From Polytrichum commune (Eukaryota; Streptophyta; Polytrichopsida; Polytrichales; Polytrichaceae), in NCBI GenBank assembly GCA_950295325.1, contig OX485806.1, forward strand, positions 37,758,001-37,822,000: a stretch of DNA of 64,000 nt. The letters run 5' to 3'. The translations under genes were made by a program, and so were the position numbers. Of the stretch, positions 2,685-57,400 are shown in pieces. Position 1 is the first letter of the stretch. Every line of letters starts with the position of its first letter. The notes below the pieces were generated by a model, which saw only the letters and a program-made list of their open reading frames with translations, did not search any database and was not told the origin of the DNA.

Positions 2685-3875
2685 ACACACATGCAAATTA
2701 AATGCGACAGTTAGAGATTGAGGACTGAACCTTGTGAGGGAGTCCATGGATGAAGCCAACATGAGCAAGGTTGTTGTCATGTTGCCCAGATTTTTTGTTC
2801 TTTCTGCCTCCAACTCATAAAGTTTTTGCTCCATGTTGAAAGTTTCTGCATCTTTCTTTGCTATCCTTGCCTCACGGGCTGTGTCAAATGCCATAACATC
2901 ACTCCTCCACATGCGCTTGTCCTTGTGCTCTGCTTCCACGCGTGTGAGGTAGTCGGAGTTGAAATCTCTTACAAAATCCACCATGTTGTCGGTGCTCGAT
3001 GATTTTCGCTTGCGACCCGTCGAGCCTGGGGTGTCATCGCCTGGGGTAGTTTGCGTCGTGGAATTGGGTGTGGTCATCGCGCTTCTTGTGGGGCTGCCCG
3101 CTGGATCAGCTGAAGGTGTAAACGCTGCAGGTGGGCTGTGGCCAAAAGGTCTCCGCGTTGGTGCAGCTGGGCGGTTGGAATCCACGACATTAGTGGGCTT
3201 GCCAAAAATCTGCCGCTTCCCTACAAAACCTTCCATTTCGATATACATGATTTCGGTAAACTCCAGCGGCATCCTCCTAGTTCTAGACAACTCCCTCTTC
3301 TCCTCTCTACTCATGCCCCACCAATTACCCGACCCCGAGGCCTCAATGTAATCCTTCAATTTCTTGTACTCCTTGATGAGCCCATCCCACTTGTTCGTGA
3401 TTTGGTTGGCATCCCGCAATCGGAAGCCAACCACACTCAAGCACCCCTCCAACACCACTTTCCATGCCGTACTACCATATACGAACCTTGCAAGAGAAGG
3501 CCTATTACAATTGTGTCGCCCGTCCCACTCGAGGCGCTTCTGCTCTATGAGGACGAGCATCTCTGACTCTATCCAGTTTGGCCCACGTGCCTTGTGAGGA
3601 ACTGCTCCCTGCGGCTGTGATGGCACAGATGACGAGCGACCATTGGAAGCCCCCCCACGGCCACGTGCATTCCTTCTTGAAGCTGCAGGCGCAGAGCAAG
3701 CGGGCAACTGGGTCTCCATGAAGCTGGAGCCAAAATCGAAACTCTCTTCTCCTCGCTGTGGAGACGTCGGACGTGGCGAGGTATCCCCCAGGTCCACGGC
3801 GTCATCCATCCCCTCGGAATGGTCTGCAGTCAGCAAAAGGCGGGTGAGCAAACATTGTGCACCCACAGAAAGCAT
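2655..3875 (-). CDS. Harbinger-associated Myb/SANT-like (trihelix-type) DNA-binding protein
   Basis: The 406-codon frame encodes the second Harbinger protein, which in characterised elements binds terminal sequences and brings the transposase into the nucleus. A Myb/SANT-like domain spans roughly residues 97-195: it begins at GPNWIESEMLVLIEQK, continues through a WKVVLEG helix and a tryptophan in NKWDGLIKEYKKLKDYI. A serine/threonine/proline-rich linker follows, then a charged region (TGRKRKSSS) and a C-terminal helical part around ARIAKKDAETFNMEQKLYELEAE. The likely start is the second in-frame ATG at 3809 (MDDAVDLGD): just upstream, TGACTGCAG looks like a splice acceptor, so 5' exons may lie in 3.9-6.3 kb. 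The frame ends inside the last codons of the convergent transposase. Confidence 0.8.
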   Translation of the reverse strand: MLSVGAQCLLTRLLLTADHSEGMDDAVDLGDTSPRPTSPQRGEESFDFGSSFMETQLPACSAPAASRRNARGRGGASNGRSSSVPSQPQGAVPHKARGPNWIESEMLVLIEQKRLEWDGRHNCNRPSLARFVYGSTAWKVVLEGCLSVVGFRLRDANQITNKWDGLIKEYKKLKDYIEASGSGNWWGMSREEKRELSRTRRMPLEFTEIMYIEMEGFVGKRQIFGKPTNVVDSNRPAAPTRRPFGHSPPAAFTPSADPAGSPTRSAMTTPNSTTQTTPGDDTPGSTGRKRKSSSTDNMVDFVRDFNSDYLTRVEAEHKDKRMWRSDVMAFDTAREARIAKKDAETFNMEQKLYELEAERTKNLGNMTTTLLMLASSMDSLTRFSPQSLTVAFNLHVCLLPRSLGMP

Positions 3876-24165: not shown

Positions 24166-24717
24166 CTAACCATCACTTTGATCAGAAGAGCAATACAATG
24201 TTTCATTTCCCTCCATTTGTCGTTCCAAAGTGAAACTGTGCAGGCTAGAATTGTCGCCGCAGCATAAGTGGATGCTACCGGAACTTAATACATCCTCGCT
24301 CGAACAGTGTGTTTTTCGTACAATGCTGTCACATGAAGACCCAATGACCCCATGTTCATTCATTGCGTGATAATCACCACTTCTGGCTCTTGGTGATGAC
24401 GAAGGGAATAATATATCTTCATGAACCGTATCATACCCATCATAAGGAGGCGGCTCGGGTAGTGGCCAACAAGCAAGGAGATTGTCCATTGACCCATATT
24501 GGTCGAATTTTAGTTGACATGGTGACATCTCCGATTCTCGGCGCTGCTGCAGTTCCATCAAGAAAGTGGTGCTGTTGAACGGTGTCGCAGGTGGATCGCC
24601 GGTACTGCTGAAACTCGTAATACTTCGAAGTTTGCTCAGCTTGTGCGTATAACTATTCCGCTTCCTCTTTCGGAAAGGCGTCGATCTGAGGGCCTTATGA
24701 CTCGCAAGCAAACCCAT
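24166..24717 (-). CDS. Small unrecognised protein, tandem copy 1, with a HEXIM PYNT-like motif
   Basis: A 183-residue protein I cannot assign. The N-terminus is basic (MGLLASHKALRSTPFRKRKR), followed by ATPFNSTTFLM, which resembles the PYNTTQFLM motif of HEXIM-type P-TEFb inhibitors. This is a resemblance only, not an assignment. Further conserved blocks are LKFDQYGSM, CWPL, ARSGDYHAMNEHGV and a C-terminal SLHSFTLERQM ... YCSSDQ. No membrane segment or enzyme motif is seen; it looks disordered. A conserved 5' non-coding exon probably precedes it: donor GTAAGT next to 25860 and acceptor TTGTGCAG before 24761. The paralogue at 27515-28177 keeps the same blocks and signals, which supports a real gene. 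Confidence 0.65.
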   Translation of the reverse strand: MGLLASHKALRSTPFRKRKRNSYTHKLSKLRSITSFSSTGDPPATPFNSTTFLMELQQRRESEMSPCQLKFDQYGSMDNLLACWPLPEPPPYDGYDTVHEDILFPSSSPRARSGDYHAMNEHGVIGSSCDSIVRKTHCSSEDVLSSGSIHLCCGDNSSLHSFTLERQMEGNETLYCSSDQSDG

Positions 24718-25859
24718 GCGTGCTGATTTACTGTGACACTTGAGAAGCTTGGGAGATCGATCTGCACAAGATCAAACTCATGATTTTCTTAAATACAGGC
24801 ACGAGGAGGATTTGCAGTGTTTCCTTCAAGGATAAAGGGGCCACATTTGCTCCGCAAGCCAACAAATTTATTGCATAAGAGGAATTTGTGCCGCAGTGGA
24901 AGGATTTTTCACATTTCCAATCCCACATGAAACAAGTTTCACATAAATTTTCACAGAGAAGAAACGGGTGCTATGGCTTGCTTGCTTCACTGGGAATGTG
25001 TCCAGATCCTCCTTATGAAGGATCGACGAATGCATCCAAGAGGATTCATTTGTGGGTTAATTTATCACCAATGTGCCTCACTAGTAGATTAGTTCGGGGT
25101 CTTTAAAGCTGATCTTAGTGTCAAATCAACTCCCAAAAATAAGCCTCCAGGCTATCTTACTATTTCAAGGCGTTTTCGTTGGATGAGCGAGAGGATGTAA
25201 GCAATCTCTCTCTCTTTCTCTCTCTCCCACAGGGCAAAAGAAGCAATCACGGCGCTCCCACAACGACACCTATTCAACAATTGCCTTTCGTGATGGCATT
25301 GCAGCTACTCCTCCAAGGCCAAACACTACTAGGAAAGCAAACGTGGTTCTTTTCAACACGACCCGAAATGACCCAAATAGGGGCGTGTCGGAAGGACCAA
25401 AAGGTGTGCCATTCTGGCCAAATTGGACCGTGTTGGAAAGAGCCACGGTTCTAGTAGTCAGGGTTCACGCATCTTTAATAGTGTTATCCAGTCCGGCTAA
25501 TTCGTGCTTAATTTCAGTGCTTGCTGACCAAATTAATCAACCAGTGATACCCATACTTAGCATACACATCCGCCAGGAAAGAGAAAATCAGAGGAGCATG
25601 AGTATGACTCGGACGTCATTGATCAAGATGATCAAATGGGAGACATCACCAACAACATCGACACTGGAAGATTGGCATCACTCCACACCCAAAACCTTAG
25701 TTACAGAGCTCTAGAGCTCCACCAGTGCCTTGAGATTTTGGTGGCAGCCAAGTAAACAACATGATCATAGCCAACTTAGCACATGAGTTTATAATGTGAG
25801 GCACGCCATTGCTAAGAGCTTGGTGGAAGGATGGGTGTGGCAATTCGGAGATAACTTAC

Positions 25860-27514: not shown

Positions 27515-28177
27515 CTATAAAGAATGAGAAATCTCACTGTTCTGACCAAATCTTTGATCAGAAGAGCAGTATACCTCACTTCCCGAGTCCATTTGTTGCT
27601 CCAACTTGAAACTGTGCAGGCTGAAATTTTCGCTGCAGCGTAATTGGAGGCTACTGGAACTTAATACATCAACAGTGCTCGAACATTCCTGATCATACTC
27701 TTGCTTGGCCGTGATAAAACCATGTATGTTTCGTATGATTTGGCCATCTTCGTCCATGTTGTCACATGAAGACCCTGCACTGACCCCATGTTCACTAATT
27801 GCGTGATCATCACCACTTCTGGCTGTTGGTGAAAACGAAGCAATGAATATGTCTCCATGAGCAGTATCACACCCATCGTTAATAAAGTTGGCTTGATTGG
27901 GTGACAGCTCGTCTAGTGGCCAGCAAGTAAGGAGATGTTCCATCGACCCATATTGGTCGAATTTCAGTTGATGGTATGAATTCTTGAATTCACAGAGCTG
28001 TTGCAGTCCCATCAAGAAAGTGGTGCTGTTGAACGGTGTTGCCGGTGGAGAGCCAGTACTACTGCTGATGCGTGTAATTATTCGGAGCTTATTCAGCTTC
28101 TGCGTATAATTATACCGCTTCCTAGTCTTTCGGAAAGGCGTCGATCTGAGGGCTTTATGACTCGTAAGCAACCCCAT
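27515..28177 (-). CDS. Small unrecognised protein, tandem copy 2, with a HEXIM PYNT-like motif
   Basis: A 220-residue paralogue of the 24166-24717 product. It shares SHKALRSTPFRK, ATPFNSTTFLM, LKFDQYGSM, CWPL, ARSGDDHAISEHGV, VLSSSSLQL and SLHSFKLEQQM. Compared with copy 1 it has in-frame insertions (around NQANF and around DEDGQIIRNIHGF) and a longer tail after YCSSDQ. Indels keep the frame and the motifs are the least changed parts, which suggests both copies were under protein-level constraint. The likely upstream intron is 29389-28222. Function unknown; the PFNSTTFLM motif is the only clue. Confidence 0.65.
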   Translation of the reverse strand: MGLLTSHKALRSTPFRKTRKRYNYTQKLNKLRIITRISSSTGSPPATPFNSTTFLMGLQQLCEFKNSYHQLKFDQYGSMEHLLTCWPLDELSPNQANFINDGCDTAHGDIFIASFSPTARSGDDHAISEHGVSAGSSCDNMDEDGQIIRNIHGFITAKQEYDQECSSTVDVLSSSSLQLRCSENFSLHSFKLEQQMDSGSEVYCSSDQRFGQNSEISHSL

Positions 28178-29389
28178 GTGTGCTGATTTATTTTGATACT
28201 TGAGAAGCTTGGGGGATCGATCTGCACAAGATCAAAGTCGTGACTTTCTTAGCCACAGGTGCGAGGAGCATTTGGAGTAACTTAAGGGGTCACATAATTT
28301 CTCCTTAAACCAACAAATGTATAGCATTATTAAGAGGAATTTGTGCCCCAGTGGAGGGAATATTCACATTTTCTTAGCCATTGAAGAGAAAGTGGCACTA
28401 AACAGGTCGACACATAATTTCAAATGTTAGATAAATTGCAAATTTAGAATTTAATATCACAGAACAAAAAATATTCATTTGACAAGAATATTTACAGAGG
28501 AGAAACGGGTGCTACGGCTTGCTTGCTCCACAGGAATCTGTCCAGATCCTCCTTGTGAGGGATCGACGAATACATCCGAGAGCACTCATTTGTGGTTAAT
28601 TCATCTCCAATGTGTCTCAATAAGAAAGAAATTTGAGGTCTTTGAAGCTGATCTCAGTGTCAAATCAACTCCCAAAAATAGCCTCCAGGCTACATTACTA
28701 TTTCAAGACGTTTTCGTGGGATGAATGATGAGAGATATTAGGTGAGTAATATCTATCTCGCCTTCCCACACGGCAATCACGGCTCTCCCACAACGACACC
28801 ATTCGACAAATGTCTTTCGTGATGGCATTGCAGCTACTCCTCCAAGAGCAAACGCTACTAGGAAAGCAACATGGCTCGTTCCAACACGAACCAAAATGAC
28901 CCAAATGAAGGGGTGTGTCGCCGGCACCACACTTTCTGCCGTTTTGGCCAAGTTGGACTGTGTTGTAAAGAGCCACGGTTCTAGTAGTCAGGGTTCACCG
29001 CATCTCAATAGTGTTATTCAGTCCGGATAAATTCATGCTTAATTTCAATGCTTGATGGCCAAATTAATCAACCAGTCATACCCATACTAAGCATACATAT
29101 CCTCCAGGAAAGAGAAAATCAGAGGAGGATGAGTATGACTCGGGCGTGATTGATCAAGATCATCAAATGCGAGATATCACCAACAACATTGACACTGGAA
29201 GATTGGCATCACTCCACACCCAAAACCTTAGCTAGAGAGCTCTAGAGCTCCACCATTGCATTGAGCTTCGGTGGCAGCAAAGCAAACAACATGATCATAG
29301 CTAACTTAGCACATGAGTTTGTAATGTGAGGCACATCATTGCTAAGAGCTTGGTGGAAGGATGGGTGTGGCAATTCGGAGATAACTTAC

Positions 29390-33884: not shown

Positions 33885-33958
33885 GACCGCGTAGCGCAGT
33901 GGATTAGCGCGTTGGACTTCGGATCCAAAGGTCGGGGGTTCGAATCCCCTCGTGGTCG
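33885..33958 (+). tRNA. tRNA-Arg (anticodon TCG)
   Basis: A complete cloverleaf. The acceptor stem GACCGCG pairs with CGTGGTC, with G as discriminator at 33958. The D-arm GCGC...GCGC is intact, the anticodon stem TTGGA/TCCAA encloses loop CTTCGGA with anticodon TCG, and the T-arm has TTCGAAT. It has no intron. It reads CGA arginine codons. Box A and box B are intact; no clear T4 terminator follows at once (TTTTTTT at 34006 is the nearest long run). Confidence 0.96.
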
Positions 33959-34112
33959 CTGGGAGAGGTATTGGATTTCGTCCTTTGAAATTGACTTTTG
34001 TGCATTTTTTTGACATTCTAGCATGCACTGTCTCACATGAACTTGACCACATAACAAGGTATTGAGTGTTTGCATTCTACCATGTAAAGTGACACAAATG
34101 GGAGAACCGACC

Positions 34113-37894: not shown

Positions 37895-38500
37895 TCAAGA
37901 CAAATCATCATATACTGAAGTGGAAGTGCTAGCTGTAGGACCCGTGGCTGCACCAGACAGATAAGTAGTTGGGTTAGCATAAAGAAACTTGTATTTTGTT
38001 TCATTCTTCCACATGGGTATGGCATCCATTAAAATAGCATCATACTCCTCTTCAGGCCCTTCTAAAGCAACTCTGAGTAAAGCTTCCAAGTTTTTGCTTC
38101 CCAATCTATTCCTTACCCGTGTTTTAATCAAATTTTGAATGCTAAAGGCTCTCTCACATGTAGCAGTGGAAACGCATTGCACTCTAGCAATTTCAGCAAG
38201 AATAAGTAGATTTGGGTACCTTATTTGTAAAGCATGATTCCAAGTAATCATACCCCACAAATCTCGAAAGGTCTTGTCCCCCCATTCGGTTGTGCATTGC
38301 AATTTGAAGGACAAAAACTCCCTCTTACAAGCCTGGACATCTAGAAGAGGAGGGAAAGAAAAACCTGCATGACTACGATCAGTTCCATAAAGCTCAAGCA
38401 ATTTTTCCAACTCAATAATCCCCCAACTCTGCAATCCAACTTGCTTTGATGGCATGTTAGAGGGATTTAGTACACAACCGAGGCAACATGGAGTCGTCAC
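37895..38500 (-). pseudogene. hAT transposase fragment, C-terminal dimerisation region
   Basis: The 201-residue frame matches the end of hAT transposases of the ZNF862-like type. The hAT dimerisation block is present: YPNLLILAEIARVQCVSTAT followed by CERAFSIQNLIKTRVRNRLG and LEALLRVALEGP. The BED finger and DDE/RNase-H-like core are absent, so it is a 3' fragment. The frame is open, which may reflect youth rather than function. An LRR-encoding fragment on the same strand lies directly upstream (38601-39030). Confidence 0.75.
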
Positions 38501-38600
38501 TTCTTCTTTTCAATTCTGTCATCTCAAAATTGCCAGTGCCACAAATTTCCCTGTTGCACACAATGCAGTCACTTGAATGCACACAAGAATTCGCACACAT

Positions 38601-45800: not shown

Positions 45801-45863
45801 GCGTGGTAAAAGGAGGACAAGTCCTTTAAAGGCAATGAGCTTCTATTGAAGAAATAAAATCTA

Positions 45864-46305
45864 TGTCACGTGAGGTGATATCGGGGGCTAAGTCACGTCA
45901 ATTTAGGAGTAAATGGACTCTACTAGGAGTCCATGTGTGTTAGGATGAGTAACGGACTCCATTGGGAGTCCTAGTTAGTTGTTCATCCCCTCCATGGATG
46001 AACTCCACATAGGATTGGGGTTGTATGGAGAGGAAGGCCTCTTGACTTGCCATTGTTGTCAAGTCAAGTCTTGTGAGTGTGTTTTGAGAGAGAGAGAGAG
46101 CTTGTTGTTGCTTTCTCATGGCTATGGTGTAGTAGATTATGAGTAAAGCCTTTGCATTCTTTCTCCACCACTTGCACTCTTGGATTCTCCCTTCGTGGAG
46201 TGAGAGATAGCTTGACTCTTGTGTGTGAATTTTAGAGTTTCTTAAGCTTTGTAAGGAGACATTTTAGTTTCTTAAGCTTGGAGAGAGAAACCCTCATACT
46301 TGACA
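45864..46305 (+). repeat. 5' LTR of the Ty3 element
   Basis: It starts TGTCACGTGAGGTGATATCG and can be read to CTTGACA at 46305; identity with the 3' copy stops at 46297. It contains a hairpin (CTTGACTTG ... CAAGTCAAG), a (GA)n run and two TTTCTTAAGCTT repeats near the end. Confidence 0.8.
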
Positions 46306-47661
46306 ACAATTTGCTCAAAATTTTCATTTTTTGGTTGTATTTCTGAGCTAGAATGGCCCAGTATTGAGAGCAAATGAGTGATACAAGTGTTTGAAAGCTT
46401 AGTTTGTCATTTCTTGCAACCCTCAAGAAGATTTTGAGAGAAATCTTCCCATTTTTCTTTTGTTGTCTCTTTGTGTTTTCTTCAAGTGTTGATGGTTGAA
46501 TCTTGAGATTCTATTTGGTCTCAAGATTCTCAAGTCACATCATTCTTGCTTGCAATTTGTAAAAGCAAAGTTTAATTTTTTTTTTAAATTTACAAACAAA
46601 CACAAACCAAATTTAAAATCCGAATTTTTTTAAAAAAAATTTTAAGCTCCGGAGCTCCACGGACACTCTTGGAGCTCTTGGAGCTCTTGGAGCTCCAATT
46701 CTGCACCCCGGGGCGGCAAAATCCCGGGGCGGGGGTGGACAATCACGGGCCGGGGGCGGGCGGCGCCAGCCGGGCCCCGCAGCTAGGTGGCAGCGGGCCG
46801 GGGGCGGGTGGGCGACAGCCTGGCCGGATGGCGGGCGGCGCCAGCCTGGCCCCCCCTCCCCTTTTCAGGTAACCCCCCCCCCCTTTTGCCTTTAAGTTAG
46901 ACTTGATTAACTTAGTTAGTTAGATTAATTAGCTTAATTAAGTTAGTTAATTAGGTTAGTTAATTCACTTAGATTAACTTAATTAATTAGGTTCATTAGT
47001 TTAAGCTAATTAAGTTAGGATGAGTTAAATTAAATTAATTAACTTAATTCATTTAAGTTAATTAAGTTTAAGTTTATTTTATTTATTTATTTTTGGTTTT
47101 GGTTTTTGTTTTTGTTTTGTTTCATTAAAACAATTATTTTATTTTATTTTATTTTATTTTCACATTTTTACTTTTACCTTTCAAACTTGGCATCCAATTC
47201 TCACAAACTTTGAGGTTCAAATTTGGGGGCATACTAGCTCCAAACGGAGTGAAATTTGAGCCTATCTTGTGTGAAATTTGCCAAGGAATCCAATGGTGTA
47301 ATTGGATTGTTGATTGGAATTCAAAATCATTGCTGAAATTATTAATTTCAACGCTGATTTTTGTTTTTGGGAGCAAATTAACTCCGAACGGAGTGAAATT
47401 TGAGCCTAATTTGTGTGAAATCTTCCTAGGAGTCCATTGGTGCACTTAGTTTGTTGATTGGAGTCCATAATCACCTTGGAAATGAGCCTTTTCAACGCTG
47501 ATTTTTCATTTTAATTACCAATCTCAAACCTTTGCACAATTTTGGAATTCTGGGGGCATAAACACTTGGCATTTGGCAAGGGATTGCCATTTATATAGCC
47601 CGCAACAGGTGCAGGTTGCCATTACCTTCTAGATAGTTGCAGGTACTCAAGTGATTATTTT
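46306..47661 (+). other. Ty3 element leader: GC-rich block, AT-rich repeat block and a 144-bp tandem repeat
   Basis: The 1.36-kb leader is strikingly patchy. 46644-46883 is almost pure G+C, with a GGAGCTCTT tandem and GGGCCGGGGGCGGG motifs, ending in C-runs. 46895-47060 is built of TTAATTAG/TTAGTTAA palindromic units. 47225-47506 holds two copies of a 144-bp unit sharing CCGAACGGAGTGAAATTTGA-like and TTTCAACGCTGATTTTT blocks. No long gene is present; a 67-codon frame in the GC block is composition-driven. Confidence 0.75.
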
Positions 47662-49326
47662 ATGGTGCAAACTAGGAGCCGATATTATCGATCTCCATCA
47701 CCAGATTACTTGGAGGACGTGCATACCACAAATCTTGAGCCAGAGGTAGATACCAACGAGGCTTTTGAGCCTATTTCGGCGTTGGACACTACTAGTAGGC
47801 TTCGGATTTGGAGTGTCGGCACGTTCGACGAAATGGAGGACGATCGCCACAATTCAGTGCGTGATCAGTTTTCAGGTCGAGCTGGGGGCATTTCCTTGCC
47901 CGATTGGAAACTCCGGTTTCGTACCTGGATTAAGGAGAAACGCCAAAGGTCTTCCAATTTCAATGATTGGTATGCCTTTGAACTTCTGCCTCAGCATTTG
48001 GAGTATGAGGCACTCCAAACTTACGAACGCTGGACAGAGGGTCATCAGCGACAACTTCGGGAAGTGGAGCAGTATTGGGAGGCCCGGGTTGAGCTTATTT
48101 CAGCCCTTAAAGATGGGGCGATTGCTACCTTAGCTCCACCCACCTTAAAGGAGGAGGAATCGCCGGCGGAGTCTAAGGACACGGAACTGGCACTTGGGCC
48201 AATGGTGGCTAGCAGTAGCACGGCAACCCTTTCACGGGTGGCACGTGCTACACAGGCAGCATTGACGGCTGTTGGTCCACCACCTCCGTTTAATCCCCTT
48301 ACTGAATTTGTCGCACATTTGGAAGTGGAGTATGGTGGGTTTCGGCGAGACCAGATGCAGCGCATCCAGGATTTCCGCCGAGAGAAGGATGATACTCCAC
48401 GGACCATGTATACGCGACTCGCGCGATTTGCTGTGGAGTCGGGAGGTGTTTTTGCTGAGAGTCAGCTTGTTAAAATCTTTTTGTCTAAAATTGACAAGCG
48501 GCTACTTGAGTTGGCATCACCTCGGATTATCCTCGACTACGAGGGCCGAGCTACGCTTGCACAAGCGTTTGCCGTGGTTGAGAGATGTGATCGGGCTCTT
48601 TGCCAACATGATGCCACGGATATGGTATCTTGGATGACAGAGAGTCCGAAACCAAGAAGAATTGTCACAGCTACTAGTAGTTTAGCTGAGACTCAACCCG
48701 TCAAGGAGCAAAAGATTTTGCATTGTTGGGGTTGTGGAGAAGTTGGTCATTCGAAGAATGATCCCAATTGTCCTAAGAAGAAGAAAACTCAGCCTTTGGG
48801 AAAATTAAAACAAAAGATGGAACCAGTAAGGGCAGGGGACAATTCTAAGAAGAGACAATTGAAATGTAACCATTGTGATGGCACTAATAACGATGTGGAT
48901 CATTGTTTCCTACTTCATCCTGAGATGCGGCCTGCCAGTTATGTCACTGGAAAGTCTCCAAGGGAGCAGAGTCTTGAGGCTAAGGTGGCGGAGCTTGAGC
49001 AAAAGCTCAAATCTTCTGCATCTTTTGCTCAAATTTCTGAGCCGCATGTGGGTGGTGGCACCTCGGGTTCGGACATGTATATGTTTGGAGCAGCTGGAGA
49101 GGTGGTGGCGGCGGCTTCTACTCGCTCACAAACATTGGCAGATGCGGTGGCTTCCACGAGTGGGGGTAGCCGCGAGGTGCTACATCCTCGCCATGCCGGA
49201 CCAGCTGATCAAATTGGTCAAGCACGTTTACCTCTTTCATTTGGATTGGTAGACACCACTGTTGTTGGGGCTAAAAACCCTGTACCTTTGAGAGATGGGG
49301 ATTCCATCTCGAAGGATGTTACGTAG
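47662..49326 (+). CDS. Gag of the Ty3 element
   Basis: 554 residues from the first ATG (MVQTRSRYYR) to a TAG at 49324. Gag packages element RNA in cytoplasmic particles. A helical retrotransposon-gag region occupies roughly residues 200-330 (FVAHLEVEYGGFRRDQMQRI, MYTRLARFAVESGG, VKIFLSKIDKRLLE). A zinc knuckle follows at CWGCGEVGHSKNDPNC, with C-x2-C-x4-H-x6-C spacing rather than the usual x4 before the last Cys. A second Cys/His cluster is at CNHCDGTNNDVDHCFLLHPE. The downstream protease frame is the same frame after one stop, as in gammaretroviral gag-pol. Confidence 0.9.
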   Translation: MVQTRSRYYRSPSPDYLEDVHTTNLEPEVDTNEAFEPISALDTTSRLRIWSVGTFDEMEDDRHNSVRDQFSGRAGGISLPDWKLRFRTWIKEKRQRSSNFNDWYAFELLPQHLEYEALQTYERWTEGHQRQLREVEQYWEARVELISALKDGAIATLAPPTLKEEESPAESKDTELALGPMVASSSTATLSRVARATQAALTAVGPPPPFNPLTEFVAHLEVEYGGFRRDQMQRIQDFRREKDDTPRTMYTRLARFAVESGGVFAESQLVKIFLSKIDKRLLELASPRIILDYEGRATLAQAFAVVERCDRALCQHDATDMVSWMTESPKPRRIVTATSSLAETQPVKEQKILHCWGCGEVGHSKNDPNCPKKKKTQPLGKLKQKMEPVRAGDNSKKRQLKCNHCDGTNNDVDHCFLLHPEMRPASYVTGKSPREQSLEAKVAELEQKLKSSASFAQISEPHVGGGTSGSDMYMFGAAGEVVAAASTRSQTLADAVASTSGGSREVLHPRHAGPADQIGQARLPLSFGLVDTTVVGAKNPVPLRDGDSISKDVT

Positions 49327-51243
49327 GCATTGGCATACAAAATTCTCCATATGCCAATTTTCTCGGGTTCGGAGTTTATGGCGTCGGATTTCAAGCCTGC
49401 TGCAGTTTTCCATTTAGCTGGGAGAATGTTAGAAGGTAAGGCGGCTTTGCCATCCCTTCAAGTATCCCAAGCTGTGGTTGACGTACCTATGGCTGACGAG
49501 GTGGAGGACTTAGCCAATTTACGAGCGAGTCTTGCGGATGCGGCGATCATTGCTTTTGGTAAGCAAACTGATATTCCTCCAGCATCAATTTCAGCAGTGG
49601 ATACGTCATTTTCGAATTATGCGTCGGGAGCGGCATATCTTGCAGACATTTCTGCAAGGCCTGCTCGCGAACGGCATAATTTGCAACCTGGAGTTGTACG
49701 GCTGATGAACGACAAATCGTTGTTTGTCGTTTCACGCACGGATATGCCCACTATCCGTGCTACACCACTGAGAGTTATGATGGATTCCGGTGCTCAACCG
49801 GTTATGATTGGCAAAGGACTTGCGGACAGTCTTGGATTGACGCCAGCAAGCTTGGATCCTTGTCCATTTACTATTGTGACTTCAGTAGGGGGCACTGAAC
49901 GTGCAACAGGTTACACCAAGGCACCTCTACGTTTGATTTTTCATGTGGGGGCAGGGCCTACTTACACTCATTTGTCAATGAAGTGTGTTGTTACTAATGC
50001 TACCAACTATGATATACTTGTTGGTCAGCAAGCTCTTTATCCACTTGGCTTTGGTTTGGATAATTGGACGGAAGAGGCATGGATTAGACCGGGATGGTCC
50101 ACTGGAGATGGCAAGAAGGTATTTATTCCTGTCACATTTGCAGCCACTGCTATGACTATGGTTGCGGAGGCAATGTTTGGTTGCAGCGGTTTAGTTGCAG
50201 ATTTGCCTTGTGCTCCAGTTTTATTGGAGGAAACAATGGACTACACTTGTAATGCGGCAGAACAACAATTTTTACCATCTTTTCAAATTCATGCTCGACA
50301 TTTCAAGGATCCACCTCCACCATGGCGAACTCCTAAAAAATTATCCGACCATTATCGACACATTGTAGCGGATTTGGAGCTTGGAGAGGCATCCCCAACT
50401 TCATCATCATTTTCTTTTGCTCAACTCATTCGTTGGCAACCATCACCTGAAGGTATTGTCCTTGTGGAGATTTTTAGAGGCATTGGCACAGGTTTGGCGG
50501 CAGTGTTGGAAGCTGGAATTACAGTTTGGCGATATATTCATGTGGACAATGGGTATGCAGCCAACAGAGCCGTCCGACACCACATCCAACAATTGTTGTT
50601 GAGATACCCCGCACAATTGTCAGCCTCTGCCATTCATGGATGTTGTGGTCAACTTCCTCAAGATGTCACTATGATTAGTGATGAGGATTTGAGAAGGTTG
50701 GGCCACGTGGATTTGATTATTGCAGGATGGCCTTGTCAAGGCCATTCGCGGGCAGGCACTGGCCAGGGATTGGATGATCCTAGGTCTAGTTTGTTGGCGG
50801 ATTTGATGCGATTGACGCAATGGTGGTTTACCCACCAATCAACTCCGCCAGGGTACATTTTCGAAAATGTACCATTATTGGGTGATACCCGACACAAAGT
50901 GGTGAAGGATGGTGAGTACATTAACCAAATTTTGGGTACTCCAACATTTCTGGATGCTGCATCTTTGGGATTCTTTGCTCATCGGCCTCGTTGGTTTTGG
51001 ACCAACTTGGTATCACCTCGGATGCTGTCAGCGGCGATTGCCCGCATTCCCCGCCTTATGGATCGCAAGGTGGATGACATTTTAAATGATCATCGTGTTT
51101 CCTTGGCAGTTACCAAGGATGACACCTTGCCATTTGCATTAATTAATAAGGTGGGAATTCCGAGAGGTGCACTACCTACTTTTGTGACATATCCACAGTC
51201 TTTTGCATTTCGATCTCGTGGACCTGGCATGGTTTGGGAATAA
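49327..51243 (+). CDS. Ty3 protease plus DNMT3/DRM-like C5 cytosine methyltransferase domain
   Basis: Same frame as Gag, opened by the stop at 49324-49326 and closed by TAA at 51241. The numbering below counts from 49330. A retropepsin-type aspartic protease has its D152-S-G at MMDSGAQPVMIG and a late NYDILVGQQAL block. From about 50440 a C5-MTase begins: motif I VEIFRGIGTG, motif II-like YIHVDNGYAANRAV, motif IV with catalytic Cys469 in LIIAGWPCQGHS, motif VI E512-N-V in YIFENVP, and motif VIII-like RPRWFWTNL (552-560). The FFAHRPRWFWTNL style resembles DNMT3/DRM. Motif IX/X-like sequence lies beyond the stop (51292-51430), so the domain is split. It would transfer methyl from SAM to cytosine; activity is unproven. 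Confidence 0.85.
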   Translation, partial: ALAYKILHMPIFSGSEFMASDFKPAAVFHLAGRMLEGKAALPSLQVSQAVVDVPMADEVEDLANLRASLADAAIIAFGKQTDIPPASISAVDTSFSNYASGAAYLADISARPARERHNLQPGVVRLMNDKSLFVVSRTDMPTIRATPLRVMMDSGAQPVMIGKGLADSLGLTPASLDPCPFTIVTSVGGTERATGYTKAPLRLIFHVGAGPTYTHLSMKCVVTNATNYDILVGQQALYPLGFGLDNWTEEAWIRPGWSTGDGKKVFIPVTFAATAMTMVAEAMFGCSGLVADLPCAPVLLEETMDYTCNAAEQQFLPSFQIHARHFKDPPPPWRTPKKLSDHYRHIVADLELGEASPTSSSFSFAQLIRWQPSPEGIVLVEIFRGIGTGLAAVLEAGITVWRYIHVDNGYAANRAVRHHIQQLLLRYPAQLSASAIHGCCGQLPQDVTMISDEDLRRLGHVDLIIAGWPCQGHSRAGTGQGLDDPRSSLLADLMRLTQWWFTHQSTPPGYIFENVPLLGDTRHKVVKDGEYINQILGTPTFLDAASLGFFAHRPRWFWTNLVSPRMLSAAIARIPRLMDRKVDDILNDHRVSLAVTKDDTLPFALINKVGIPRGALPTFVTYPQSFAFRSRGPGMVWE

Positions 51244-51759
51244 AAATCCCAAACTTATGAGGAGCCTACGGCAGATGAGCGGGAACGCGCCATGGGTTTT
51301 CTTACAGGTACCACGGCTGCTCACGGGCTTCAGAAAGGTCAGAGACGTTTCCTATTGGGGCAAGCTATGGATCTTAATAGCATTGTGTGGATAATTGGAA
51401 TTTGTCTTGTTGCTCAACAACGTATGGATGACCGATTGCTTACTCTGAGAGCAGAGAACAATGGTCAGGGGACAATGGAGCCGCAATCCAAGGATCACAT
51501 TGAGGTCAATGACACCGAGGGATTATTTCCTTTGAAACTTCATGTTGCGGAAGAGCTTCGAGTCCAACGTGGTTTTTCGGCTTTGGCCCAAGAGTTTGGG
51601 AAGTTGGAGGCCCATAAAATGTTTCTACTTCTACTTCTTGGTGATACTTCATATGTGGATAGCTATTTAGCTACACAAACTGATTGTAGTGGAGAGGATA
51701 CGCATTTGGATTCAAGTGCAGATGATGGGGGCAAAGGTGTTGCCCTCTCCACGGACTAG
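51244..51759 (+). CDS. Ty3 polyprotein: end of the methyltransferase domain and linker to RT
   Basis: Same frame, 171 codons between a TAA and a TAG. The start reads YEEPTADERERAMGF, then FLTGTTAAHGL and RRFLLGQAMDLNSIVW. The last block matches the position and style of motif X of C5 methyltransferases (compare the RLLGRSW block of DNMT3), which packs against motif I at the SAM site. The rest is an unassigned helical linker. It ends at TAG followed by CAA TCA, the CAR-YYA readthrough context. There is no good start codon, so this part can only be made by suppression of the previous stop or in a sister copy without it. Confidence 0.65.
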   Translation, partial: KSQTYEEPTADERERAMGFLTGTTAAHGLQKGQRRFLLGQAMDLNSIVWIIGICLVAQQRMDDRLLTLRAENNGQGTMEPQSKDHIEVNDTEGLFPLKLHVAEELRVQRGFSALAQEFGKLEAHKMFLLLLLGDTSYVDSYLATQTDCSGEDTHLDSSADDGGKGVALSTD

Positions 51760-52899
51760 CAATCACAGGCTGTGCTGGCACCAATTGGCAATCCTTCTAT
51801 GAAGAAGGAAACTACGGAGTTTGACGATTGGCCAATTGAAGTAGGGCCAAAGCTTACTGGTGCCGAAGCACGAAAGGTACGGGCATTTATTCGCTCTTAC
51901 CGTAATTGTTTTGCCTTTAGTCTTCATGATCTTGAAGGATATAAAGGTAAACCTGTTCGTATTCAACTCGAGGACGACCACCCTATTTTCAGACGGCCAT
52001 ACAGACTTAGTACCTCTGAAAGGTTGGGTGTTCAAACTCGATGTCAAGAGTTATTGGCAGCGGAATTGATTGAACTCTCCAATGGAGAGTATGCTTGTGC
52101 CACGGTTATGCCGTCAAAGAATGATATCTTTGGCAACTGGACGGAAAAACGGATGTGTGGTGATTATCGTCCAGTCAACCGCAAGACCAAGTCGGATCGA
52201 TATCCAATGCCGATGCCGGAGGAGTTGTTTGATGCACTAGGATTTTCTAGAATCTTCAGCACTTTGGATTTGAGGTCTGGTTATCACCAATTACCTTTGT
52301 TGTTGGGTGATCGGGTGAAGACCGCATTTTGGGGAATTGATAAAGATGGCAAGGATCAACTTTATCATTGGAAATTTCTGCCATTTGGTCTCAAGAATGC
52401 ACCAGCTGAATTTCAGCGGGTGATGGACCAATTATTGGCTGGTTTGCCGTTTGCTAGATGTTACATTGATGATGTTATCATCTTTAGTAATAGTCCACAG
52501 GATCATGTGAGACATTTGCAAGCGGTATTTGAACGACTTCAACGGTGGGGACTCCGTTTACATCATGGAAAATGTAAGTTTTTCCATGATCAATTGCCCT
52601 ATTTAGGCCACATGATTGTTCATGGCGGTCTTGGTGTGCAACAGGCGAAGGTGGATGCTTTGCACAAAATTCCCGCACCTAGTGATGTACCACGGCTTCG
52701 TGCATTTCTAGGATTGGCAAATTATTATAGGAGGTTTGTCAAAAACTTTAGTTTGATTGCCAAACCCCTTACCATTCTCACGGGGAAAGACCAACCATGG
52801 ATTTGGAGTCGGGAACAACAACAGGCATTTGATACATTGAAGCAGAGGCTCGGTTCAGCGCCAGTGCTTCGACGCCCGGATGTGTCTAGAGCTTTTTAA
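51760..52899 (+). CDS. Ty3 reverse transcriptase
   Basis: Same frame, from the TAG at 51757 to a TAA at 52897. RT blocks are in order: HPIFRRPYRLS, MCGDYRPVNRKTKSDRYPMP, FSTLDLRSGYHQLPL, FLPFGLKNAPAEFQRVMD, the catalytic YIDD (Tyr codon 52462) and LPYLGHMIV with ALHKIPAPSDVPRLRAFLGL, the Ty3 thumb. It ends at the junction to RNase H, where the stop replaces the residue before LHTDWS. No conserved RT residue is missing. It would copy element RNA in particles. Confidence 0.92.
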   Translation, partial: QSQAVLAPIGNPSMKKETTEFDDWPIEVGPKLTGAEARKVRAFIRSYRNCFAFSLHDLEGYKGKPVRIQLEDDHPIFRRPYRLSTSERLGVQTRCQELLAAELIELSNGEYACATVMPSKNDIFGNWTEKRMCGDYRPVNRKTKSDRYPMPMPEELFDALGFSRIFSTLDLRSGYHQLPLLLGDRVKTAFWGIDKDGKDQLYHWKFLPFGLKNAPAEFQRVMDQLLAGLPFARCYIDDVIIFSNSPQDHVRHLQAVFERLQRWGLRLHHGKCKFFHDQLPYLGHMIVHGGLGVQQAKVDALHKIPAPSDVPRLRAFLGLANYYRRFVKNFSLIAKPLTILTGKDQPWIWSREQQQAFDTLKQRLGSAPVLRRPDVSRAF

Positions 52900-54903
52900 T
52901 TGCACACGGATTGGAGTGCAGTGGGATTGGGAGCGGTATTGACACAGAAAGATGAAGAGGGAAAGGAATATGTGGTGGCTTATGCATCTAGAAGCAATAA
53001 TAGTGCTGAATCTAATTATTCTTCTTATGAAGGCGAGGCCTTGGCGGCCGTTTGGGCCATTGCACATTTTCGACCTTATTTGTATGGGCAAAAGTTTACT
53101 TTGATGACTGATCATCAGTCTTTAAAATGGCTTATGGAATCAGATAAGCTCACCGAGAAACTTGCTAGGTGGGCATTGTTACTTCAGGAATATGATTTTG
53201 AAGTTGTTCACCGAGCAGGAATTGCCAACTTGGATGCAGACGGATTGTCTCGCAATCCAAGTCCTTCAGATGAGGATTTAACTGGAGCCAGGTGGCATGG
53301 AGATTGTGATCGTGAGGCAGTGTCGGGTTGGCATGCTGCCACATATCTCACAATGATGTCGGGATTGGCTGCTGAGATCCTTGTAGAAGAACATGATGAG
53401 GAGGTTGATAAATCTCTCGTTGTTAGTGATGTGTGGGAAGACCAGGCGGTCTTGTACAAACTTCAACAAGGGATATTTCCTCTTGGACTATCTGCTATGA
53501 AGCGAGATAGAGTTAGTCACCGGATAACAAGGTTTCGTTGGATAAACAACTTGTTATTTCGTGTGTGGCCGAACGGAACGAGGCGCATCGTTCCAAGGCC
53601 AGATCAAAGAGCTTCTTTGGTACGGCAAGTGCACGAGGAGCTTGGACATTTTGGAGTGCGAAGGACGCACTCTATGTTGCGCAACCAATATTGGTGGACT
53701 GGTATGTATCAACAGGTTGCCACTTATGTTTCTCGGTGTGAAGTATGTGACCGGGTCAGGTCAAGTTTTAATAATTTGTCACCTCAACTTCAGCCTTTAC
53801 CTATTATGGGCTTGGGATATCGTTGGTCTTTGGATTTTGCCGGACCGCTTACTATCACTCCACGTGGTTCCAAGTATGTGCTTGTGATGGTGAAGCATTT
53901 TAGTAAGTGGATTGAACTCGTGGCTCTTCCCCAAAATTCCTCAGAATTGGCGGCTATGGCATTTCTTGATCGAGTTTTGGCACGGTTTGGAGCACCTGCA
54001 GAGGTGTTGACGGATCAAGGGAGAGAATTCCTTGGATCTTTCGAGGCTTTGTGTACCAAGGCTTTGATTGATCATCGGACAACTTCTAGAGATCACCCTG
54101 AGGCAGATGGCTTAGCTGAACGAGTTGTTCAGACAGTTAAGCGCGGTTTGCGGAAGTATGGATTGCTTCATGGCAACCATCGCGATTGGGACTTGATGTT
54201 ACCATGGATAGCAATGGGTTATCGTTTCAGCAGGCAAGCATCTTTGGCATCCTATAGTCCTTACCAACTCTTGTATGGACGGGAACCAATTTTACCTAGC
54301 TCGGTACGAGAGAAATTGGCTCCCGTGGTAAACTTGGATGATCCAGATGTTTGGGCTCAATGTCTTCATGACCGAGCAGCGTTCTTCCAAAAGGCCATGC
54401 CTATGGCTATGGAGAACTTAAATATTGCTCAACATCGTGATACATTATGGTATACTCGGATCCGCAGTGGAGCTTATCGACCTCAGGTTCGTAGATTTTC
54501 CAAGGGGAATTATGTTTACTTGCAACGGGAGGCGCCTACGATATTGGATGTCAAGGCTGGGCACACGATTTTGCGGGTAAAAGATGTCTTGCCAAGTGGT
54601 ATATTATTGCTTGAAGGCAAGGATGGACGGGAATGTCGTGAGCATTCAAAGAATTGTGCTCCATGTCACCTTCCCATCGACGGCTCTGTGCATCCCGAGT
54701 TGGCGGTTGTACCACAGGGTTTGCCTTGTTATGTTTGTGGAGAGAAGACAGGAGCTGCAATAATGTTATTGTGCGACCAATATCAACGTGGATGGCACAT
54801 GGCATGTTTGACACCTCCCCTTTTTACTCTTCCTTCTGGCAATTGGGTTTGTCCTCGTTGTCGGAAAGCCTCTCATTCCGTGGCCGTTAATGGTCATGAT
54901 TGA
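52900..54903 (+). CDS. Ty3 RNase H and integrase with C-terminal PHD-like finger
   Basis: The same frame continues for 667 codons. RNase H: HTDWSAVGLGAVL, YEGEALAAVWAI, LMTDHQSL and GIANLDADGLSRNP (catalytic D/E/D/D visible). Integrase: HHCC finger (HEELGHFGVRRTHSML ... CEVC); core D312 in SLDFAGP, D372 in LTDQGREF, E407 in GLAERVVQ, with one residue fewer than the classical DD35E spacing. A GKGNYV-like tail follows (PQVRRFSKGNYVYLQREAP). The last 70 residues form a PHD-like finger (Cys codons from 54726 to 54861): CYVC, LLCDQY, GWHMAC, NWVCPRC. The usual fourth Cys is Tyr (codon TAT 54781). PHD fingers read histone H3 tails, so a role in target choice is inferred. Confidence 0.9.
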   Translation: MHTDWSAVGLGAVLTQKDEEGKEYVVAYASRSNNSAESNYSSYEGEALAAVWAIAHFRPYLYGQKFTLMTDHQSLKWLMESDKLTEKLARWALLLQEYDFEVVHRAGIANLDADGLSRNPSPSDEDLTGARWHGDCDREAVSGWHAATYLTMMSGLAAEILVEEHDEEVDKSLVVSDVWEDQAVLYKLQQGIFPLGLSAMKRDRVSHRITRFRWINNLLFRVWPNGTRRIVPRPDQRASLVRQVHEELGHFGVRRTHSMLRNQYWWTGMYQQVATYVSRCEVCDRVRSSFNNLSPQLQPLPIMGLGYRWSLDFAGPLTITPRGSKYVLVMVKHFSKWIELVALPQNSSELAAMAFLDRVLARFGAPAEVLTDQGREFLGSFEALCTKALIDHRTTSRDHPEADGLAERVVQTVKRGLRKYGLLHGNHRDWDLMLPWIAMGYRFSRQASLASYSPYQLLYGREPILPSSVREKLAPVVNLDDPDVWAQCLHDRAAFFQKAMPMAMENLNIAQHRDTLWYTRIRSGAYRPQVRRFSKGNYVYLQREAPTILDVKAGHTILRVKDVLPSGILLLEGKDGRECREHSKNCAPCHLPIDGSVHPELAVVPQGLPCYVCGEKTGAAIMLLCDQYQRGWHMACLTPPLFTLPSGNWVCPRCRKASHSVAVNGHD

Positions 54904-55218
54904 GGATTTTGTGGATGTTTACCACATGTTTTAGTGGTGAAGTTGTTATTTAGTTGGTTGGAAATTTTATGGGATTGAAAATCACATTGAAAGAGTTATC
55001 TAAGAATTCAACATAAATTGTTGAAGGCGATTAAGGATGGGGCTCAAATTGCACCCAGCCTATAGTTCTTGGATTACTTTCTCAATCATGAGTTTAATTC
55101 CCTAGATTACCACTACCCAATTGAATATGTATAGATGTAGCAACAACTTCATCATGTTCAACAACTCTACCGATGAGTGTGTTTGTTCCTAGCCGATTGG
55201 AGGGGCTCCTTATCTGCT
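54904..55218 (+). other. Ty3 element 3' untranslated region
   Basis: Non-coding sequence between the polyprotein stop (TGA 54901) and the polypurine-like tract AGTGGGGGCA at 55219-55228. Confidence 0.6.
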
Positions 55219-55228
55219 AGTGGGGGCA

Positions 55229-55335
55229 CTTGAAGAGGTGGTTGTTTAGCATTTTAGTTTGCTATTTTATTTTGCTAATTGATGTTGACGCCGACACTCG
55301 ATCTGTTGTGTTTAACGATCTTAGTTTACACGACA
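55229..55335 (+). repeat. 107-bp direct repeat R1, before the 3' LTR copy
   Basis: It starts CTTGAAGAGGTGGTTG directly after the polypurine-like tract and ends ACACGACA. It is repeated with one difference at 55770-55876 (R2), on the other side of the 432-bp LTR copy. It is absent from the 5' LTR. Confidence 0.9.
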
Positions 55336-55337
55336 GC

Positions 55338-55876
55338 TGTCACGTGAGGTGATATCGGGGGCTAAGTCACGTCAATTTAGGAGTAAATGGACTCCACTAG
55401 GAGTCCATGTGTGTTAGGATGAGTAATGGACTCCATTGGGAGTCCTAGTTAGTTGTTCATCCCCTCCATGGATGAACTCCACATAGGATTGGGGTTGTAT
55501 GGAGAGGAAGGCCTCTTGACTTGCCATTGTTGTCAAGTCAAGTCTTGTGAGTGTGTTTTGAGAGAGAGAGAGCTTGTTGTTGCTTTCTCATGGCTATGGT
55601 GTAGTAGATTATGAGTAAAGCCTTTGCATTCTTTCTCCACCACTTGCACTCTTGGATTCTCCCTTCGTGGAGTGAGAGATAGCTTGACTCTTGTGTGTGA
55701 ATTTTAGAGTTTCTTAAGCTTTGTAAGGAGACATTTTAGTTTCTTAAGCTTGGAGAGAGAAACCCTCATCTTGAAGAGGTGGTTGTTTAGCATTTTAGTT
55801 TGCTATTTTATTTTGCTAATTGATGTTGACGCCGACACTCGATCTATTGTGTTTAACGATCTTAGTTTACACGACA
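55338..55876 (+). repeat. 3' LTR: 432-bp LTR copy plus 107-bp repeat R2
   Basis: 55338-55769 matches the 5' LTR. The match breaks at the shared string CTTGA and continues as R2 (55770-55876), ending GACA before TCTA. TGTC at the start and GACA at the end are complementary, as expected for LTR ends. Confidence 0.75.
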
Positions 55877-57400
55877 TCTAAGATTTTGAAATTTTATAGA
55901 ATAATAATAATTCAAAATTTTTACATCAAAAAATAGACATTGAAGAGAATTTTTTTATGATTAGAAAAAATTGTGATTTGTTGAAAGAAACTACTGAGGT
56001 TCATCAATCCATTGTCAAAATATTATAGAAATACAACTTGTCAAAAATTTGCATTGTTCAAATTTGAGAATCAAATAGTGATTCTAAAGCTGTAAATAGT
56101 AATTACAATTTTTTAAATAGATGCCATATGTTTATCCACATTTTTCAATAAAGTTGAGTTTCTTTGGAAGGTTGTGACAAAATTAGTAGAATTTGAAACA
56201 ATTTTTTCTAAGACCATTTTTAAATTATCTTGAAATTTCTTCTTCTATTATTGTTTTGGAGTAACCTCATGGTCTTACAATCATGATGGTATTTTGTCTT
56301 CATGGTTTTCATCTCCATTATCTATGGCACATGCTGGAATTTGAAATTTTACACATGCACGAGTAGAATTCCAAATATCAAGTTGCTCAAATCATTTGCA
56401 TTTTTTATATCTATCTGAATCTGAAATTTCATTGGTTTTCTTATCATTTTTTTATTCAATATGGATCATCTTGTATTTCTTTTTGCATAATTTTTATGAA
56501 CGGTGGAAGTCTCGAATTGCCACTACCATTCATGCTTGTAATTTCAACCATGTATTAATTTATGAATTATCATATTGATATACATTAGTACATTCATATA
56601 TAAATAGATGAAAGTAAAATGATTCTTAGAATGTCAAAAAAACAACCGAAAAGGCCTCACTTGGGGATCTAAAGATTGAAGATAACATAGTAAAAATGTA
56701 GAAAAATCAAATTATCACACGAGGGGGAAAAAATATTGGTGGCACACATCCTAAAATAAGTGTATTGAAAAGTAGTTCAAGGTTCAAAGCTCGATGCTTG
56801 CATCCTTTAATGAGACCCAATAGGGGGGTACCGACTAAGGCTAAGACTTAAGCTAAGGCCCTTACTTGAGATGTAATTATAATTTTTATAAAATCTATAC
56901 TTATTTTTTGGAAAACAATTATATGTATAAATGGATATGAAGTAACAAAAATATTATATCACACATATCTTGTTTTTTGGCATATTTTTCAAGAAATTTC
57001 TTCCATCTCTTGTCTAATCGCCATCAACATTTTGACCATGCAATCTTGCCACTTCTGAGTGGATCAATTTTTTTCCAAGCTTGAATCAACCAAATTCACC
57101 ACTTTCTTTGCTCATTTCTTTGTTGTCTTATATGATGTTTTTTTTGTTTTTTTTGTTTTTGGTTCGAGCACTTGTTTTTCTTCTTTTTGATGGTTGTCAT
57201 CTCTTCTTTGATGAAGGTACATCCTCACCATTTAGTGCATATGCTGCAACAATAATTGCCTCCTCTTTCTTCGCATCCATTAAAACATTCCTTGCATTTT
57301 CAGTCAGTATCACTTCCTCGCTTGATAGTTGTAAATTTGAACCACTACAATGAGGGATTCCAAGAGGCAAAAAAATCTAGCATTACTAGTACCAAAACGT
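55877..57400. pseudogene. Possible remains of the second half of Harbinger element 2
   Basis: This is the sequence that continued from 45863 before the Ty3 insertion. On the minus strand, pieces such as TRACVKFQIPACAIDNGDE (about 56310-56370) and WQDCMVKMLMAIRQEMEEI (about 57000-57060), plus a lysine-rich stretch, look like decayed coding sequence. By analogy with the intact Harbinger at the left edge, this would be the convergent Myb-like gene. The assignment is weak. Confidence 0.3.

Follow-up and report, generated by a model that had tools for sequence, protein, structure and literature searches.

Closest described systems

C5-cytosine methyltransferases (MTases) are known in retrotransposons of dinoflagellates and of Klebsormidium, in which the gypsy elements have repeats like those of DIRS (de Mendoza et al. 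2018, PMC5890265), and a 2025 survey restates retrotransposon-borne DNMT3 for streptophytes and dinoflagellates (PMC12344493). Here we describe a family of MTase-bearing Ty3/gypsy-type elements in Polytrichum commune from the copy at 45864-55876 of a 64,000-nucleotide stretch of contig OX485806.1 (positions 37,758,001 to 37,822,000, forward strand), called the window below and numbered from its first base. The two outer ends of this element are the two halves of a palindrome that it also retains internally, its direct repeats are split, and its RNA looks self-primed; judging from genomic sequence, we think it probable that the element integrates inside out, its DDE integrase opening the palindrome within the long terminal repeat (LTR) of the cDNA while the natural cDNA ends are sealed together by end joining.

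SymbioDIRS-Dnmt3 shares with this family its A-coding-B-A-B repeats and a Dnmt3 MTase, but uses a tyrosine recombinase where the window family has a DDE integrase (PMC5890265). The cases of the 2025 survey belong to LTR Copia and DIRS families, and its available text mentions neither a PHD finger nor a repeat mechanism (PMC12344493). By its published description, rather than by sequence, KnitGypsy-Dnmt3 of Klebsormidium nitens is like the window family in its gypsy-type pol, Dnmt3-related MTase and DIRS-like repeats (PMC5890265, Fig. 4c legend), and likewise has several copies with the MTase under purifying selection (PMC5890265). It differs in placing the MTase in the Pol open reading frame (ORF), whereas the MTase of the window family lies with Gag-protease, upstream of a UAG; the window family has a PHD finger, a term absent from the main text of PMC5890265. 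The available portion of that article describes no self-primer, palindrome, target-site duplication (TSD) or end joining for KnitGypsy.

The window element has the Ty3/gypsy domain order of protease, reverse transcriptase (RT), RNase H and a DDE integrase. The D-E spacing of this integrase is 34, the usual value being 35. It does not have the identical LTR at each outer end that is expected of Ty3/gypsy, an LTR appearing only in the inferred cDNA. Split direct repeats are shared with DIRS/PAT elements, but in place of a tyrosine recombinase and the lack of TSDs there are a DDE integrase and 4-bp TSDs. As in Tf1/Sushi-type elements, the RNA 5' end is predicted from sequence to be complementary to an LTR-adjacent primer binding site (PBS); Pfam scans matched no chromodomain, another trait of that type, and found a PHD finger instead. 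Among solved C5-MTases, a profile search put DNMT3 closest.

Tf1/Sushi and Tcn1 elements have, as far as we know, ordinary LTRs. REM1 of Chlamydomonas has a PHD finger, and differs in that its integrase is a remnant in the reverse frame; we know of no MTase in REM1 or in Ginger1, which for its part differs in being a DNA transposon. Ginger1 is alike in the linkage of its PHD finger to a gypsy-type integrase (PMC2836005). Self-priming of reverse transcription is shared with the chromoviruses Tf1/Sushi and Tcn1, the latter of mosses and club-mosses, which have a chromodomain in place of the PHD finger (Neumann et al. 2019, PMC6317226); the main text of that article uses neither the word PHD nor the word methyltransferase. 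Integrases of HIV-1 and foamy virus cleave palindromic LTR-LTR junctions, that is, a palindrome made by abutted ends, but the retroviral palindrome is a ligated junction, whereas that of the window family would lie inside the inferred LTR and be carried on the RNA (PMC1905944, PMC1180852). Troyka was rejected as a relative, since its CG..CG ends and 3-bp TSD differ (PMC12440569). In the literature searched, with subscription journals largely outside its scope, neither this replication anatomy nor the combination with a PHD finger was found described. The integration route is seemingly undescribed, while an MTase-bearing gypsy element with DIRS-like repeats is already known from Klebsormidium.

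Anatomy of the element and its family

An earlier note on this DNA had proposed a Ty3/gypsy element with an MTase and an integrase-linked PHD-like finger at 49330..54903. That span covers protease to PHD finger, but the whole element is larger, reaching from 45864 to 55876 between copies of the 4-bp TSD TCTA, and contains the direct repeats A1, B1, A2 and B2 in the order A-coding-B-GC-A-B. The split repeats, the self-primer and the palindrome, all missed by that note, are the more unusual features. We hold the anatomy, as follows, with high confidence.

45860..45863, no strand: left TSD TCTA (identical 4 bases at 55877-55880)
45864..46297, plus strand: repeat A1, starts TG (2 substitutions and one 2-nt indel relative to A2)
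46052..46064, plus strand: self-primer, the predicted first 13 nt of the RNA (perfect complement of 46298-46310; fold)
46298..46310, plus strand: PBS, starting at the first base 3' of A1
47599..49326, plus strand: Gag-like part, CCHC-like knuckles visible in translation, private stop at 49324 (Pfam zinc finger sub-threshold, 0.0076)
49330..50376, plus strand: aspartic protease region (DSG), in the frame of the Gag-like part (weak Pfam match)
50440..51430, plus strand: C5-cytosine MTase, DNMT3-like, private stop at 51241 (Pfam, PDB profile, sister copies)
51757..51765, plus strand: conserved stop context TAG CAA TCA, readthrough type (TAG in 12 of 12 other sequences)
51760..52896, plus strand: RT, private stop at 52897 (Pfam)
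52900..53400, plus strand: RNase H (Pfam)
53401..54690, plus strand: DDE integrase, HHCC, D59D34E (Pfam, residues)
54724..54864, plus strand: C-terminal PHD finger of the integrase, lacking one Cys in the window copy (Pfam, PDB, alignment)
55216..55228, plus strand: predicted polypurine tract (PPT) GCTAGTGGGGGCA (exact junction with B1 in all 36 assessable copies)
55229..55335, plus strand: repeat B1 (direct-repeat comparison)
55332..55341, no strand: palindrome GACAGCTGTC (spacer GC, 55336-55337, missing at the outer ends)
55338..55769, plus strand: repeat A2 (direct-repeat comparison)
55770..55876, plus strand: repeat B2, ends CA (direct-repeat comparison)
55877..55880, no strand: right TSD TCTA (copy of the left TSD)

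Pfam matched DNA_methylase (PF00145, 3.4e-11), RVT_1 (4.4e-31), RNase H (7.4e-36), Integrase_H2C2 (8.1e-18), rve (1.3e-13) and PHD (1.3e-7) in the window copy, bearing out the joint presence of an MTase and an integrase-tail PHD finger in a Ty3/gypsy-type element, as well as the proposed domain order except at the protease, whose models matched only weakly (best 1.7e-4, under the cut-off). The domains are not all in one frame as had been supposed: in-frame stops stand at 49324, 51241, 51757 and 52897. By the look of its reading frame the window copy is defective, because the stops at 49324, 51241 and 52897 are private to it (absent from 10 sister copies), as is the Arg of its motif I, FRGIGTG, a residue absent in 7 other aligned proteins (5 of them sister copies), and because a zinc-ligand Cys of the PHD finger, kept in 12 other sequences, is lost. 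Open frames longer than those of the window copy are present at other loci in the genome. The leader holds a 144-bp tandem duplication (47222-47509, 78% identity), with similar matches in sister copies.

A search of the assembly (407.8 Mb in 64 contigs, about 406 Mb of it in C1 to C7) gave 144 scored MTase matches among 534 candidates, 130 at 77-100% identity (first family) and 14 at 62-64% (second family). A 1386-aa frame, the span from 47599 to the stop at 51757, is listed in 19 of the 144 rows, with match-internal stops counted in 4 of these. Ten whole copies were taken from the top 30 MTase rows, their ends ignored in the choice; together with a second-family copy and a further relative, L001 (62% identity in its best segment, with one A region and one B region), they make up the 12 other sequences (13 with the window copy). 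All share the order protease-MTase-RT. L001 (1-9285) is filed as a cyanobacterial metagenome-assembled genome yet holds a eukaryotic-type retrotransposon, a 127-nt terminal overlap closing the contig; it is probably a contaminant of the genome collection. Scans of viral contigs with MTase, RT and integrase-PHD pieces found no relatives. Over about 430 sites, 0-5 differences separate A1 from A2 in each of 7 copies; the family is large and partly young.

The integrated form is highly regular. The right end reads B-A-B in 10 of the 10 whole copies, and nine combine A1 and an exact 4-bp TSD, while in the tenth no A1 lies within the stretch analysed. Further left/right pairs matched exactly in 16 of 19 cases; of the other three, one shows an offset due to an altered first base of the element, one matches in 3 of 4 bases, and the members of the third, 21.8 kb apart, may not belong together. 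Among 49 distinct right ends chosen by MTase match, all of the first family, 37 are long (B-GC-A-B), 4 are short (B only) and 8 have no form call (L062, L064, L066, L068, L079, L080, L123 and L132). The short form, A-coding-B, has an exact 4-bp TSD in 4 of 4 cases; these copies may be primary products or B1-B2 recombinants. An independent look at A/B joints, with 40 scored of 458 candidates and biased to exact joints, led to 30 loci, 23 with full right ends and 7 with A-B lacking the coding part; where A was full, a 4-bp TSD was found in 5 of 6. The second-family copy (one read) shows the same A-coding-B-GC-A-B order with the 4-bp TSD TGTC. In L001 the repeat order is unreadable, since only one A and one B are present, but the palindrome, PPT and UAG CAA are shared with the family.

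Two side observations concern A. That of L054 is internally duplicated at A1. In A1 of the window copy (45864-46297) CHG occurs 0 times against 14.3 expected and CG 5 times against 19.9; the values for A are 3 against 12.4 and 6 against 17.0 in the second family, and 2 against 13.6 and 16 against 18.1 in L001. CHG is thus scarce in all three. Because L001 is not low in CG, CG depletion of A is not general and supports no claim.

Reverse-transcription signals

The 13-mer at the first base after A1 is the perfect complement of a stretch within A1, a complementarity reached in 0 of 2000 shuffles of A1. In the predicted fold of the RNA 5' end of the window copy, these 13 bases pair with the PBS whether the best or the centroid structure is taken (whole fold, z -2.82; 0 of 200 shuffles equally good). 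The second family has a different, perfectly complementary 13-mer that also starts at the first base after A, and L001 has yet another, although there the 3' border of A is indeterminable as the contig holds A once. With such compensating 13-nt complements across three families, the RNA looks self-primed; at least 13 complementary bases are kept in 10 of 13 copies checked. A PBS for a tRNA usually begins with TGG. Priming by tRNA was rejected, TGG not being found in the 33 bases after A1.

At the other end, B1 starts directly after GTGGGGGCA. By the usual rules of reverse transcription the positions of PBS and PPT would therefore give cDNA ends CTTGAAG... and ...CCCTCAT and an LTR of B-GC-A, so that a normal cDNA would be [B-GC-A]...[B-GC-A]. 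These predicted ends meet at A2/B2 in integrated copies, that is, within the element and not at its borders with the target.

The palindrome and probable inside-out integration

At its outer ends, TGTC... and ...GACA, the element carries one half each of the palindrome GACA-GC-TGTC that is retained between B1 and A2, and the spacer GC is absent there, as with 3' processing by integrases. Only one run of at least 12 bases is identical in the three families (about 600 aligned bases), namely a 20-nt block that spans the palindrome, overall identity in aligned columns around the junction being 72-78%.

Where the predicted cDNA ends meet, the joint is sometimes imperfect: of 36 assessable copies, 6 are inexact at A2/B2 and 0 at PPT/B1 (Fisher p 0.025). 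L119, the same copy as L044, was dropped from this check, and the joint was unassessable in the four short forms (L075, L129, L134 and L135), in the eight right ends without a form call and in L124, which is of the long form and inexact at its joint. Of the 6 inexact joints, four have lost bases (10, 28, about 17 and about 82), one has gained a single base and one carries a 5-for-4 exchange; 2 of the 6 show microhomology of 4-5 nt. L054 and L124 have a shortened A2 but an intact 3' end of A1, so that the loss belongs to the joint. At L068, A2 is followed by some 7 PBS-like bases and then other DNA, which would suit the joining of an atypical cDNA end.

From these ends and joints we conclude that the natural cDNA ends would have been joined after synthesis and the new ends created at the palindrome. 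In the sequence of events that we favour, the first 13 nt of the RNA would fold back to pair with the PBS, so that the RNA primes its own reverse transcription and yields cDNA with B-GC-A LTRs. The palindrome of the PBS-side LTR should become double-stranded first, and the DDE integrase would make a staggered cut there, with a loss of GC like that in 3' processing. Insertion into the target would then take place through the TG and CA ends, and the two original cDNA ends would be sealed together by end joining.

Methyltransferase, PHD finger and coding strategy

The best PDB matches of the window MTase are DNMT3A/3B, and a profile of 8 MTase sequences matched DNMT3A (8.5e-12), DNMT3C (2.2e-11) and DNMT3B (4.2e-11) ahead of HaeIII (7.1e-7), 4onj (8.7e-5; presumably a DRM), DNMT2 (2.6e-3) and DRM2 (0.018), with HhaI also among the weaker matches and no DNMT1- or CMT-labelled entries at E up to 1. 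Because its motif IV aligns as PCQ with the PCN of DNMT3A, we call the enzyme DNMT3-like rather than proven DNMT3. The motif IX-X piece matched nothing in PDB at E up to 10. AlphaFold2 models reached a mean confidence (pLDDT) of 35.8 from the single sequence and 43 with 8 sequences; a fold search with the latter placed DNMT3A/3B on top, weakly, at a TM score of about 0.31 only.

The catalytic motifs are conserved in sister copies, and the ratio of nonsynonymous to synonymous substitution (dN/dS; codons with a stop or gap excluded) for motifs I-VIII is 0.09 and 0.11 between families (a third comparison was saturated), alongside 0.06 for RT. Pooled within the family it is 0.33 for motifs I-VIII, 0.32 for RT, 1.05 for motifs IX-X with the linker and 1.10 for the PHD tail. 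On these ratios the MTase is under purifying selection. The PHD finger exceeds the Pfam cut-off in the window copy and in L001 (4.3e-10), and its best PDB matches are CHD4, PHF12, PHF21A and KDM5-type fingers. All eight ligands are kept in 11 of 13 sequences, the window copy and the second-family copy each lacking one; stops fall inside the finger in L044 and L056.

Unlike the private stops, that at 51757 is common to the family: the 13 sequences have TAG CAA TCA (in the second family TTA) between MTase and RT, that is, UAG-CAA-UYA. The context UAG-CAR-YYA is that of tobamovirus-type readthrough. With a readthrough-type stop at this place, the main product would therefore be Gag-protease-MTase, RT-RNase H-integrase-PHD arising only by way of the leaky UAG, and MTase should outnumber polymerase in particles.

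Most likely the MTase would act on the cDNA of its own element, methylating it ahead of integration, and the PHD finger would tether the integrase to a histone tail; these two roles are the least certain steps of all, and our confidence in the exact role of the MTase is low. The earlier suggestion that the element both reads chromatin and methylates DNA may hold, the conserved MTase motifs and 11 of 13 intact PHD fingers being consistent with it. A lesser but serious possibility is that the MTase acts elsewhere than on element DNA, on RNA, at host loci or by binding only. The enzyme is known from its sequence, and the element shows no CpG depletion relative to the window (CpG ratio 0.67 vs 0.58), both of which would suit such a role, but its affinity is of DNMT3 rather than DNMT2 type by PDB matches (weakly also by fold search), and its catalytic motifs are kept. 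Two CpGs flank the palindrome within the 20-nt three-family block (TTTACACGACAGCTGTCACG). A speculative idea, to which we give little weight, is that the MTase belongs to the integration machinery and, through methylation of the older LTR copy, would leave only the newest, PBS-side palindrome open to integrase.

Order of events and alternative explanations

If two equal palindromes were used at random, half of the copies should have B upstream of A1. None of 35 left ends has this arrangement, although these come from the 40 best-scoring of 804 candidates, a choice that weighs against our preferred reading along with several further points. The end-joining signal is modest. The four A-coding-B copies without an A-B tail are not needed by the model, though B1-B2 recombination could account for them, and the self-complement is shorter in 3 of the 13 copies checked (9, 9 and 10 nt). 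Transcript, cDNA, circle and enzyme are all deduced from genomic DNA; the sequence is compatible with a cut before or after end joining, and the restriction of the cut to the PBS side lacks a proven cause. For the accessory domains, within-family dN/dS comes to about 1 for the linker and the PHD tail, so that selection on the PHD finger is argued from its ligands and one between-family value (0.11), and the KnitGypsy MTase domain gave no methylation in yeast, an outcome its authors call inconclusive (PMC5890265).

The same joints and split repeats would be accounted for by a closed two-LTR circle, in which the ends are ligated first and integrase cuts either palindrome, or by DIRS-like circular replication. 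The short form with its exact TSDs would fit a one-LTR circle, and the KnitGypsy repeats have been likened to those of DIRS (PMC5890265). But the short form is obtainable by B1-B2 recombination too, no tyrosine recombinase was matched in the five pieces scanned (E up to 0.1), and under a symmetric circle some half of the copies should be A-B-GC-A-coding-B. The symmetric closed circle, our first model, was lowered on the left-end count, and we now regard circular intermediates of either kind as unlikely.

Inside-out integration of a self-primed element thus remains the reading we prefer. An ordinary LTR element with A as its LTR, whose B repeats would stem from local duplication or a nested insertion in the window copy, draws on the fact that A alone begins with TG and ends near CA, but is refuted by the sister copies: B-GC-A-B recurs in all whole copies, in 37 of 41 resolved right ends and in the second-family copy, the TSDs lie at the A...B ends, and the PPT precedes B1, not A2. 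That the MTase is a host gene inserted once in the window copy, or an assembly artefact, can be dismissed, the 144 scored matches and its place between protease and RT in whole copies, the second family and L001 refuting a one-off insertion.

Other features of the window

A DDE_Tnp_4 transposase, which we take to be Harbinger-type, lies at 897-2684 on the plus strand (Pfam 7.4e-32), adjoined by a Myb/SANT-like ORF at 2655-3878 on the minus strand (0.00043, below the cut-off). Also on the minus strand are a tandem pair of similar long ORFs at 24166-24771 and 27515-28231, the former with a weak HEXIM match (0.00039, below the cut-off), and the dimerisation tail of a hAT transposase at 37895-38509 (Pfam 3.7e-9). 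The window further contains a tRNA-Arg (TCG) gene at 33885-33959 on the plus strand and what we read as a plant-type RPL38-like exon.

Implications

If inside-out integration is correct, a retroelement with a DDE integrase need not integrate via the linear ends of its cDNA; the joining site could be carried, and opened, inside the LTR. Split direct repeats would then gain a simple origin without a tyrosine recombinase. The palindromic junction is an old idea as an integrase substrate, and this family would be a natural system that revives it.

Should CpG methylation control the cut, this would explain both its strict one-sidedness and the recurrence of MTases in split-repeat retroelements (SymbioDIRS, KnitGypsy and the window element); DIRS elements have adenine MTases. 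MTase-gated integration would then be a eukaryotic counterpart of the Dam control of bacterial DDE transposases. The family offers a system in which to ask what a retroelement gains from a DNA MTase of its own, placed with Gag and not with the polymerase.

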